From contig JAEURX010000036.1 of assembly GCA_016788885.1 (NCBI GenBank), positions 62,001 through 126,000 on the forward strand: a DNA stretch of 64,000 nucleotides. Direction: 5' to 3'. The notes under the pieces are model-generated. The model ran no database searches. It saw nothing but the letters and a program-made list of their open reading frames with translations, and was not told the origin of the DNA. The stretch is from Nitrospira sp. (lineage in GTDB: Bacteria > Nitrospirota > Nitrospiria > Nitrospirales > Nitrospiraceae). The first letter of the stretch is position 1. Every line of letters starts with the position of its first letter. The translations under genes were made by a program, and so were the position numbers. Of the stretch, positions 9,224 through 25,476 are shown one piece after another.

Positions 9224-11104
9224 TTACGCCGCTTCCGAGGTCCGAGATGGAAGCCAACGTCGAAGCGCGCCGGCGATCTGTTCGAGCGCCACGGGTTTGG
9301 TGACATAGTCGTCCATGCCTGCAGCGAGACAGGCCTGCCGGTGCGTTTCAAGCGCATGTGCGGTCAAGGCGACGATTGAGACGGGCTTGCCATCCACCCG
9401 GGTGATTCGGCGCTGACGGATAGCTTTGGTCGCCGTCACCCCGTCCATTTCAGGCATCTCACAATCCATAAAGATCAGGTCGAACGGCGAATGGTTCAGG
9501 GCCTGCAGCACACTGGTCCCTGTCCCTACGACGGTCGCCGAGTGTCCGCACAACTCCAGCATGCCCAGCAAGACCTCGCGATTCGTCGGATCATCTTCCG
9601 CGACGAGAATCCTTCCGCCCTCGGGAACATCAGCAGGTTCGGGACATCCTGTCGACATATTCGCTGTGGGCCCGGGATTTTTTGAGAAGCCTGGCGGCCT
9701 CATTTCGGCCGATGACGCCGTTTGCGCGTCTGGCCTCAATGGGAGCGTAAACCAGAACGTGGATCCCTGCCCGGGGGTGCTGTCCACTCCGATCTGCCCA
9801 CCCATCATATCCACCAGCCGCTGGACGATCGCCAGGCCTAGCCCGGTCCCTCCAAACCGGCGACTCGTCGACCCGTCGGCCTGCGAAAAGGGATCGAAAA
9901 TTCGTGTTTGCGCTTCGAGAGGAATCCCGATACCGGTATCACGCACCACCACCTTCATCGTCACGTGCCTCCCGTCGCCGTCATGACGCTGAAGGGACAG
10001 CGCAATTTCTCCCCGCTCCGTAAATTTCACCGCGTTGCCGACAAGATTGAGCAGGATCTGGCGAAGGCGCCCCGCATCTCCACACCACCGCAGCGGCAGA
10101 GCCTTGTCAACCTCACAATGCCACCGCACCCCTTTGCGCTGAAGCGGCTCGTGGAACAAGTCGCCCAGGGAACGCACCAGAGGAAGCAACTCAAATTCTG
10201 CCTGTTCCAGTTCCACCTTATTGGCCTCGATCTTGGAGAAATCGAGAATCTCGTTAATAACGTGCAGAAGAGCGACGCCAGAGTCGCGAATCGTGTGTGA
10301 GAAGTGCCGCTGTTTGTCGGACAGACTGGTCGCCAGCAGCAGTTCTACCATGCCCAGCACGCCGTTCATCGGCGTGCGAATTTCATGGCTCATCTGAGCC
10401 AGGAATCGGGACTTCGCCTGGTTCGCGCTATCGGCTTCCGCCTTCGCCTCTCTGAGCGCATCCACCAGCTGTTGCAGTTCCTCATTGCGCCGCTGCAATT
10501 CGAGTGTGCGGGTCTGCACATCCCGTTCGAGCCGCTGATTGGCTGCCTGCAACTCGCGACTGCGCTCGTCGACCAGCGCAGCCAGTTCATCGACCTTCAA
10601 TCTGGCCTCCCGTCCCAACTCCCACTTACGAGTAAGTGCGTTGGCAATCTGCTGCACTTCAATGGAATCGAATGGTTTCCGCAAGATCAACAATCGATCC
10701 GTCACCCCCAGCCGCGAAGCGATCTCATTCCAGGACAGGTCAGAATACGCTGTGCAAATGACGACCTGGATCTCTGGATCAGCCGCCCAGATTCGTTCAA
10801 TGGTCGTCAGGCCGTCCCAACCGGGCGGCATGCGCATGTCGACCACCGCCAGCGCATAAGGGTGTCCGCACTTCCGCGCGGCACACACCCGATCGAATCC
10901 CTGTTGCCCTTGGTCGACAAAGTCGACATCAAACGGCTCGACCGTCGACGAGGCGACCCTATCTCCGAACAACGCGGCCCTGGCCTGCTGCAAATCTGAC
11001 GGCACTGCGGCAGGAATGAGAATCTTTCGAAAATCCTCATGGATGGTTCGATTGTCGTCAATCACAAGAATCCGGCGATTTCGTGAGCTGATAGGTAAGG
11101 TCAT
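9224..11104 (-). CDS. hybrid sensor histidine kinase (REC-HisKA-HATPase-REC)
   Basis: A 626-residue cytoplasmic hybrid kinase. An N-terminal receiver has Asp16/Asp17, phospho-acceptor Asp89 in VVDMRMPPG and Lys143. A coiled coil (about 165-230) leads into the dimerisation helix with phospho-acceptor His240 ([11 protein letters not shown]) and an ATPase domain with N, G1 and G2 boxes (GTGLGLAI). A second receiver carries [11 protein letters not shown] and the lysine in YVTKPV. There is no membrane segment, so it must be driven by a partner. Its ATG overlaps the stop of the upstream kinase gene by 4 bases (ATGA), implying coupled translation and a shared relay. No DNA-binding output domain is present. 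Confidence 0.93.
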
Positions 11105-23963: not shown

Positions 23964-25476
23964 GGAGTTCCGGTCTCCTTCCTGTCTCGGACACCGCGCG
24001 CGTGGCAGGCGCCCACTGTTTCCGCAATGCGTCGGCGAGTTCCGTCACCGTCTGACCGTCAAGGCCGGTCGGCGCGGCATCCTCCCCCATCGACGCCATC
24101 AAGGTGGCGTAGGCCGATTCGACTCCCGACTGCGCGCTGTCCATCCGCACCTCAGCCAACACATCATTCACCCGTTCACGAATGAGGGTCAGGTCGGTGG
24201 TGCTCTTCGTGAGCCACAAATTCTTGGTATGGTCGGTGATCGCCAATTGCGTTTCGTGGTAACTCTTCGCCGTGAAGTATTCTTGACTCGCGTGGGCGAA
24301 CTGCAACGCACCGACATGGACCTCCGTCAGAATCGTCAGGGTCAACGCCGTGCTTTGGGCATCCAGCACCTGACGATGCGCCTCCACCGCCTTCAATTTG
24401 GCCGGCATGCGAAAGGCCGAGACTAAGTTCCAACTGACCTGTGATGCGTATCCGAGCCAATTTTGATAAAGGAAGAAGCTGTTGCTGCTGTAATACCCGC
24501 CGAGGCTCAGCTTCAAATTGGGAAACAGTTCCAGAAACACCGCTCGCGCTTCCTTGGCATTGATTCGCTTTTGATAGTCGATGGACCGCAGTTCGGCGCG
24601 ATAGAGCAGCGCCTGCTCTTCCATTCGCTCGGTGTTGAGATTCACCACCGGCAGCGTGCTCGTCCGCTGCGGCACTTCCAGTTCATATTCAGTCCCCGGC
24701 GGCAAGCCCATCATGGAAGCGAGCTGAACTCGTGCCGTACTGAGCTCGCGATAGAGGCGTTGAACCTCGCGCTGAATATTGAGCAAGTCGCGACGATAGT
24801 TCAGCGGCGTCAAGGGCGTCTGGAGCTTCTTGTCGACGATCTGCTGCGCCCGCTCCAACGCCGTGTTGACCGATTCATCGAGAAACTTCACCCGAGCGAG
24901 TACCCGTTCCGCACTGATGGCTCGCCAGTAGGCGCTGCGGACATCCTGGACGAGTCGAACAGCAATACGTCGCCGTTCCTCCTCGGCAATCATCACGTTG
25001 TCCGCCGCCTGTTGGGCACGAACGAATGACAGGCCGAAGTCCAGCACATCCCAACTGAGCGCGAGATTCCCCGACACCACGTTTTTGTCGGATGAGGTAA
25101 AGGGTTCGAGGACAGGGCGACCGTCAAGCAACGATTGTGCACCGCCGCCGCTATACGAGTTGCGGCCATCGAACCCCGCATTGGCGGACAACTGAGGCAG
25201 CAACGTGTAGTGAGCCACGTTCAATTGCTGATGCGCCAACTGCGCCTGCATGGCTTTGACCTTGGCATCCAGGTTGTATTTCAGCGCCCGGGCAATCGCT
25301 TCATAGAGGTCGATCGGCCCGGACAGGGGTTCCTGGAGAGCGGACACGGTTTCAAGGTCCTTGGCGACACGAGTTTGCACATCGTCCTGGGTCAGGACAT
25401 AGGGTTTGACCATGCATCCTGAGATGAACAGAACCGTCCCCAACAGACCAGCTATGCGAAAGATTCCTCGTGTCAT
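23941..25476 (-). CDS. TolC-like outer-membrane efflux lipoprotein
   Basis: A 511-residue protein with a lipoprotein signal ending in FISGC, then the helix-rich repeat of TolC-type channels. Two related halves carry long Ala/Gln/Leu/Arg helices (QAQLAHQQLNVAHYTLLPQL; and later FLELFPNLKLSLGGYYSS). TolC-type trimers form the outer-membrane exit duct of type I secretion and efflux systems. The ATG at 25476 gives a signal of normal length; an upstream in-frame ATG at 25518 lacks a ribosome site and would put about 35 residues before the lipobox. As the first gene of the operon it precedes three adaptor-type genes and the giant surface-protein gene. Confidence 0.88.
   Translation of the reverse strand: MTRGIFRIAGLLGTVLFISGCMVKPYVLTQDDVQTRVAKDLETVSALQEPLSGPIDLYEAIARALKYNLDAKVKAMQAQLAHQQLNVAHYTLLPQLSANAGFDGRNSYSGGGAQSLLDGRPVLEPFTSSDKNVVSGNLALSWDVLDFGLSFVRAQQAADNVMIAEEERRRIAVRLVQDVRSAYWRAISAERVLARVKFLDESVNTALERAQQIVDKKLQTPLTPLNYRRDLLNIQREVQRLYRELSTARVQLASMMGLPPGTEYELEVPQRTSTLPVVNLNTERMEEQALLYRAELRSIDYQKRINAKEARAVFLELFPNLKLSLGGYYSSNSFFLYQNWLGYASQVSWNLVSAFRMPAKLKAVEAHRQVLDAQSTALTLTILTEVHVGALQFAHASQEYFTAKSYHETQLAITDHTKNLWLTKSTTDLTLIRERVNDVLAEVRMDSAQSGVESAYATLMASMGEDAAPTGLDGQTVTELADALRKQWAPATRAVSETGRRPELHAIPMAN

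Follow-up and report, generated by a model that had tools for sequence, protein, structure and literature searches.

How does a protein of more than two thousand residues leave the cell when the genes beside it encode a TolC-like channel and HlyD-type adaptors and no ATP-binding cassette (ABC) exporter? The question is raised by a seven-gene block in a Nitrospira genome (3.92 Mb in 75 contigs, 99.78% complete), of which a 64-kb stretch of contig JAEURX010000036.1, hereafter the window, was analysed. The first-pass annotation of the window had read the block as an export operon for a giant cadherin protein and had proposed a distinct secretion route, in which a fusion of an M50 protease with a HlyD adaptor takes the place of the exporter. 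We consider it probable that the operon belongs to type A of a hitherto undescribed kind of export cassette, which works without an ABC protein and serves giant proteins with an LExR motif near the N-terminus. Sequence comparison establishes four elements of this reading, namely a conserved cassette, its linkage to LExR-bearing giants, the lack of an ABC exporter among the cassette genes, and covariation of the last motif residue with the cassette type, type A being the cassette of the window and type B a sister cassette, also present in this genome (contig C20).

The operon and its conservation

Calling of open reading frames (ORFs) combined with Pfam searches confirmed the annotated operon with its giant cadherin protein: seven collinear genes lie on the minus strand in one tight block, in which neighbours overlap or are at most 4 bp apart, save for one gap of 230 bp between the genes of M50-HlyD and the giant. 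From its upstream end the block encodes a TolC-like outer-membrane factor, likely a lipoprotein (23941–25518; PF02321, 2e-26; lipoprotein-like signal by eye), a HlyD/RND-type periplasmic adaptor (23178–23963; PF13437, 2.4e-19; TIGR01730, 120 bits, above cut-off), a HlyD adaptor with an N-terminal GAF-like region (21809–23173; PF13437, 9.6e-12), the M50-HlyD fusion, composed of a PqqD-like N-domain, a multi-spanning M50 core and a periplasmic HlyD part (19667–21805; PF02163 and HlyD_3), and the giant of 2137 residues (13023–19436; DUF4347, 1.9e-58, with Cadherin, Cadherin_3 and Cadherin_4), followed by two kinases. Position 25476, the second ATG of the TolC-like frame, lies just ahead of the lipoprotein-like signal and is a plausible true start. 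No ABC gene was found among the ORFs of the block and the Pfam matches of their products, as had been noted. The domain labels held for the TolC-like protein, the HlyD adaptors, the M50 fusion and both kinases; that of a GAF fusion is weak, the adaptor of the window having no Pfam match to GAF, with matches in 6 of 17 type A members of its family (E ≤ 1, best 8.2e-5) and a clear GAF domain in the type B homologue (8.8e-14).

The cassette of TolC-like protein, HlyD adaptor, GAF-like/HlyD adaptor and M50-HlyD recurs, in this order, across 80 loci from named genomes of Nitrospirota and Alpha-, Beta- and Gammaproteobacteria; all four genes are labelled in 47 of the 80, and contig ends truncate many of the loci. 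ABC genes in annotated cassette loci are of the ATPase type only: those in L163, L280, L359 and L361 were scanned and are import ATPases or Uup, and those in L070, L071, L073, L091, L122, L138, L148, L162, L165, L269 and L357, of 228 to 485 residues, were judged by length. The lack of a local ABC gene is to be read as a conserved trait and no accident of the window. The closest named relatives of the M50-HlyD protein of the window are found in Candidatus Nitrospira defluvii and other Nitrospira.

A survey of M50-HlyD fusions against LEPR/DUF4347 proteins revealed co-occurrence in two samples, the opposite of the missing association that would have refuted the first-pass proposal. Among 61 related genomes, our own included, a close M50-HlyD (full-length, at least 37% identity) and DUF4347 are present in the identical 25, on one contig and about 6 kb apart at most (Fisher 1e-17). 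The remaining 36 hold neither, six of them having distant M50-HlyD matches only (27–30% identity). Because these genomes are related, an independent sample of 321 gammaproteobacterial genomes was drawn, in which DUF4347 occurs in 40, M50-HlyD (threshold E 1e-40) in 48 and both in 29 (Fisher 8.6e-20); wherever both lie on one contig, they are within 40 kb of each other (14 of 14 genomes). One gammaproteobacterial giant fills a frame of more than 10,000 residues. DUF4347 was present in seven of eight cassette genomes checked, and the giants cut by the locus edge in L118, L120 and L134 carry it in the whole gene. In Micavibrio, two tandem proteins of about 965 residues that start with LEKRLMLD stand beside a type A cassette (L151, 240–6034); as DUF4347 is absent from this genome, the domain seems dispensable.

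The N-terminal motif

In these comparisons it is the LExR motif, rather than DUF4347, that tracks the cassette, because DUF4347 proteins without the motif mostly come without the cassette. The giant of the window carries it as LEQRLMFD (residues 35–42; 19311–19334, minus strand), a candidate export leader, in an N-terminus that, read by eye, has charged residues inside a short hydrophobic stretch. The motif is found at the N-terminus of all 36 DUF4347 proteins in the 80 named-genome loci, against a background of 4 in 722 ordinary ORFs with a match within the first 250 residues. In the gammaproteobacterial sample, 25 of 28 DUF4347 proteins from genomes with M50-HlyD bear LExR (27 when near variants are included) versus 3 of 10 from genomes without it (p 9e-4, or 7e-5 with near variants; the table omits G136, which has no ORF, and G261, whose N-terminus is cut). 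DUF4347 as the sorting feature was rejected on account of the other seven of these ten, which have no LExR. Four such motif-free proteins (G196, G233, G254 and G373) have hydrophobic, Sec-like starts by eye, and a further one (G317) has, some 17 kb away from its gene, what by motif and length resembles an ABC exporter gene. The genomes without M50-HlyD in which the motif is kept (G191, G313 and G354) are fragmented assemblies with DUF4347 on short contigs.

The last residue of the motif varies with the cassette type, being Asp in 59 of 59 type A loci and Ser or Ala in 7 of 7 type B loci, counts in which some loci repeat genomes. Counted by genome in the gammaproteobacterial sample, a terminal Asp is present in all eight of type A and in none of the 17 of type B (p 9e-7), in a comparison that omits G145 (no motif), G352 (ambiguous in type, ending in Ser) and G371 (both types, ending in Asp).

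Two cassette types and a SecA-like ATPase

The second M50-HlyD of our genome, on C20, is about 26% identical to the window copy and is accompanied by the clearly matched GAF-HlyD adaptor, a TolC protein, a further HlyD adaptor and a SecA-like ATPase of 664 residues; this type B locus (L069, 1–17319 of C20) also encodes a repeat-rich protein that the end of the contig truncates. The ATPase matches SecA_DEAD (4e-103), P-loop_SecA and the preprotein cross-linking domain, and is 39% identical to the housekeeping SecA of the same genome, relative to which it lacks about 240 residues, most of them at the C-terminus. SecA-like genes were found in 18 of 24 type B loci versus 0 of 98 type A loci. Among the 61 genomes an extra SecA-like protein occurs in eight, all with a distant M50-HlyD, and two more (G046 and G053) have a distant M50-HlyD and no extra copy. 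Since such a copy is missing from 21 of the 25 type A relatives, type A, judged by gene content, does not depend on it. The gammaproteobacterial sample holds at least 19 SecA-like copies in 18 genomes, all with M50-HlyD, and 17 copies directly adjoin that gene; SecA-like proteins were told from housekeeping SecA by score and frame length (G121 by position), and the counts are among the matches listed.

Type B neighbours seen whole in Nitrospira are LEARVLLA proteins of 690 and 715 residues without DUF4347 (L084 and L085). Stretches of L345, L349, L353 and L356 are masked, and some genes there are uncalled. Two loci, L359 (G180) and L361 (G297), have a divergent layout of TolC, a short LE[QE]RVVLD protein (836 and 1116 residues), M50-HlyD and then a Uup-like ABC-F protein; L359 additionally has HlyD and GAF-HlyD beside TolC.

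ABC exporters outside the cassette

The first-pass annotation had cautioned that the absence of an ABC gene was only local; a genome search for an exporter of the HlyB/LapB type found one, on contig C17, among the five ABC_membrane proteins of our genome (HlyB class; TIGR01846, 1036 bits). It is adjoined by a gene of 458 residues, HlyD-like as judged by position, and an RTX protein with 17 stretches matching HemolysinCabind is encoded nearby; the three therefore have the look of a regular type I system that serves a different substrate. This locus (L007, 4895–9427 and 1–4914, on C17) also encodes a 328-residue protein without a Pfam match. The claim that this organism has no ABC exporter in its genome was thus rejected; what stands is that the exporter lies outside the cassette and that such an exporter is not common to all cassette carriers.

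Every one of the 61 genomes gave TIGR03375 matches; most of these are ABC proteins of other kinds, and no match exceeds the cut-off of the model. We counted as exporter-like a near-full-length match of at least about 458 bits among the matches listed, to which the following numbers apply: 20 of the 25 DUF4347-positive genomes, our own included, have one, G008, G045, G050, G057 and G060 have no such LssB-type match, and the DUF4347-free relatives G001, G004, G006, G012, G013, G030, G033, G037 and G053 have near-full-length matches too. Type I family scores were computed for the ABC proteins of G008, G045, G050 and G057, for the C17 gene and for the four scanned cassette-near genes. In G050 and G057, where M50-HlyD and giant are both intact, every ABC_membrane match was scanned and none exceeded a type I cut-off; their ABC proteins are MsbA, MsbA-related or unclassified, with one cyclic-peptide exporter in G057. 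Taken with the association described above, these two genomes uphold the proposed distinct route, apart from its suggestion that the M50 protein supplies the energy. G008, in which a type I-class ABC exporter is likewise missing, was dropped as the cleanest ABC-free case because of a frameshift in the gene of its giant; the C-terminus of this giant (chromosome CP092081; L077, 6678–10868, and L093, 12358–16548) is out of character, through mutation or assembly error. Two ABC proteins of G045 reached no family at E 1e-140, and G060, which holds a protein PrtD-like by eye (L194), was not used.

The M50-HlyD protein and the giant

M50-HlyD matches PF02163 at 31.3 bits (cut-off 27.2), with HExxH and the conserved Asp motif both present. 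H207, E208, H211 and D309 are invariant in an alignment of 38 M50-HlyD sequences, and the active-site residues are kept in types A and B. The HExxH zinc motif is encoded at 21173–21187 and the likewise invariant FDGYY motif, which we take to be the third zinc ligand region, at 20870–20884 (both minus strand). In the structural model (mean predicted local distance difference test, pLDDT, 84; predicted template-modelling score, pTM, 0.62) the HlyD part matches MacA, MexA and EmrA structures, and a helical membrane part is preceded by a conserved N-domain (residues 15–98; 21512–21763, minus strand). The model of this domain has the element order bbb-aaa, which is that of the PqqD fold, and is suggestive of a PqqD/RRE-like domain. 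Weak PqqD Pfam matches were obtained for 5 of 32 family members (E ≤ 1, best 0.0066), the window protein not among them, and a PDB sequence search with the N-domain gave no meaningful match. The daptide protease model NF041824 scored 172 bits (E 2e-50), below its cut-off of 300, and the match to YydH/LiaK is weak.

The DUF4347 domain of the giant (18642–19136, minus strand) is predicted, with pLDDT mostly above 90 from residue 71 on, to adopt a caspase-like (clan CD) fold with the candidate dyad His155/Cys199. Foldseek returned 9qpe_G (3.6e-5), followed by the cysteine protease domain (CPD) of TcdB, legumain and caspases, with modest TM-scores and flavodoxin-type rows lower in the list; by Z-score the top match is Tce1 (12.8), with SAVED-CHAT at 9.2 and most others at 6–8, a range that the tool calls common. 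Cys199 is kept in 35 of 35 DUF4347 sequences and His155, the His of SHG, in 28 of 35, aligned by sequence. Tce1 is PA0256, a protein with DUF4347 (PMC8262886), and has been described as a putative cysteine protease, with residues His186 and Cys240 (PMC13323088). From its model, DUF4347 is a probable protease with a caspase-like fold. Copies in which the candidate His is Glu or Asp and the Cys is kept (L101, L102, L103, L107, L108, L109 and the minus-strand copy of L111) are possibly inactive or altered. At its other end the giant has a hydrophobic module (GFVAWAIRSGALLAS ... PAWRAFDPLPVV; 13167–13301, minus strand) followed by a polar tail. Most complete giants of Nitrospirota and those of Nitrosomonas share this conserved module, and the C-termini of giants differ between lineages. 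RTX repeats are frequent, if not general, in type I substrates; no HemolysinCabind match to the giant of the window was found at E 0.01.

Proposed mechanism and alternative explanations

We propose that the LExR segment acts as a leader and that the PqqD-like N-domain of M50-HlyD would recognise it; the membrane part of this fusion would form an inner-membrane platform anchoring a duct to the outside, built from the three adaptors and the TolC-like protein. The M50 part may trim the leader or an end of the giant that is held in the membrane, and in Nitrospirota and Nitrosomonas giants the hydrophobic module at the C-terminus is its second possible target; the caspase-like domain may process the giant. 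In type B the dedicated SecA-like ATPase probably pushes the substrate; the driver of type A would lie outside the cassette and may be the housekeeping SecA/Sec machinery or the proton-motive force. The M50 protein, which had been suggested as energy source, is unlikely to be one, since to our knowledge no translocation process is known to be powered by peptide hydrolysis; the sister cassette, moreover, usually has its SecA-like ATPase. Taken in full, the proposal amounts to a new Gram-negative secretion system in which M50-HlyD reads an LExR leader whose Asp or Ser/Ala marks the cassette, giants are threaded ABC-free through a TolC duct, and a truncated SecA drives one branch and a shared or other motor that of the window; we put this complete version forward tentatively, at somewhat less than an even chance. 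A literature search for the cassette or its parts, with most subscription papers and all preprints outside its reach, returned no title describing it.

Several points weigh against the ABC-independent cassette as we read it. Export is a proposal drawn from gene content, and the PqqD assignment of the N-domain is weak. No DUF4347 match was found in 19 of the 48 gammaproteobacterial genomes with M50-HlyD, and G004, G012, G013 and G036 have a type B cassette with SecA-like gene and no DUF4347; given such genomes, either substrates vary or assemblies are incomplete. G145 has M50-HlyD and a motif-free DUF4347 protein with a Sec-like start. Type A comes without a dedicated ATPase, and 6 of the 24 type B loci are without a nearby SecA-like gene, G149 and G378 holding one elsewhere. 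Finally, the genomes are phylogenetically dependent, some are repeated among the loci (L072/L091, L077/L093 and L120/L282), and L357 and L358, which fit both types almost equally well, were entered as A and B, respectively.

Under ordinary type I secretion of the giant, the gene of the ABC exporter would lie elsewhere in the genome, that on C17 being one candidate, and its product would drive the giant through the TolC/HlyD set. The HlyB-class gene of our genome and the exporter-like matches in most DUF4347-positive genomes are in keeping with this, but the C17 exporter comes with its own RTX protein and HlyD-like neighbour, the giant of the window lacks an RTX match, exporter-like matches extend to DUF4347-free relatives, and the four larger cassette-near ABC genes that were scanned are import ATPases or Uup. 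Cassette and giant also persist in G050 and G057, whose only ABC_membrane matches are MsbA-like, unclassified or of the cyclic-peptide class; G008 has no type I-class exporter either, though with a frameshifted giant. We rate this explanation as quite improbable. Passage of the giant across the inner membrane by the general Sec route, with the cassette only moving it outward from the periplasm and processing it, is unlikely as well: the LExR N-terminus, with charges in its short hydrophobic stretch, is unlike a normal signal peptide by eye, and a conserved N-domain precedes the membrane part of M50-HlyD. This route would nevertheless suit the SecA-like ATPase that type B usually encodes, the signal-like starts seen by eye in the motif-free proteins of G196, G233, G254 and G373, by which Sec can probably carry the domain, and the housekeeping-like SecA match, whole or in pieces, in 24 of 25 type A relatives (G017 having the SecA-like copy only).

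The M50 part might instead be mainly a release switch, the C-terminal module holding the giant in the inner membrane until M50 cuts. M50 enzymes cut within membranes, which fits, as does conservation of the module in most complete Nitrospirota giants and in those of Nitrosomonas; alpha- and gammaproteobacterial giants whose C-termini were seen have the same cassette without the module, however, and we give this explanation a small chance. That the cassette matures and exports a small peptide, in the manner of M50/PqqD-like proteins from clusters for ribosomally synthesized and post-translationally modified peptides (RiPPs), with the giant a mere neighbour, draws on the subthreshold daptide protease match and the weaker one to YydH/LiaK; set against the linkage to giants and the matching of motif to cassette, it appears very improbable (a precursor gene was not looked for).

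Like LapB/HlyB-type type I secretion of giant adhesins, one of the nearest known systems, the operon has a TolC-like factor, HlyD-type adaptors and a giant repeat protein encoded alongside, and unlike it the cassette is ABC-free, with M50-HlyD instead, an N-terminal LExR motif and, in the window, a giant without an RTX match; thus HlyD and TolC are in place and the ABC protein that defines type I secretion is not. Other tripartite pumps, which comprise ABC, RND and MFS types (PMC8277102), share the architecture of adaptor and TolC, down to the MacA, MexA and EmrA likeness of the HlyD part; here the inner-membrane partner is an M50 protease fusion, to which type B usually adds a SecA-like ATPase. 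The daptide and YydH/LiaK RiPP proteases have an M50 core with an N-terminal extension in common with our protein, which in contrast falls below the NF041824 cut-off, is fused to HlyD and is linked to giants. The type B ATPase has the SecA_DEAD, cross-linking and P-loop domains of SecA and accessory SecA2, and differs from these in its shorter length, its position beside M50-HlyD and its absence from type A loci. Clan CD cysteine proteases (Tce1, TcdB CPD, CHAT, caspases) share the predicted fold of DUF4347, which differs in being the N-terminal part of a giant and in having Glu or Asp for the candidate His in 7 of 35 sequences.

Neighbouring genes

The last two genes of the operon encode, by Pfam, a PAS histidine kinase (11101–13026, minus strand) and a hybrid histidine kinase with two receiver domains (9224–11104, minus strand). 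Relatives of the PAS kinase are found downstream of certain other Nitrospirota giants, recognised by N-terminal likeness in L075, L079 and L080 and by hidden Markov model in L101 and L105. Upstream of the operon a Tll0287-like protein (PF11845) is encoded at 26159–27037, with a similar gene upstream in L070. Farther on, at 30575–31678 and 33267–34370, are two ABC-type ATPases of 367 residues in the same orientation, identical at 272 of 367 residues, which we take to be molybdate-type ModC proteins.

Implications

We regard the cassette as a variant of tripartite export that would be categorically new if export and motor were confirmed. It suggests functions for DUF4347 and the LExR motif, as a probable protease and a probable export leader, respectively. 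The exit route of giant cadherin-like and LEPR-type proteins is unsettled in the literature searched, and the cassette makes this question testable gene by gene; if our reading is true, M50-HlyD would represent a new kind of inner-membrane partner for tripartite TolC systems.

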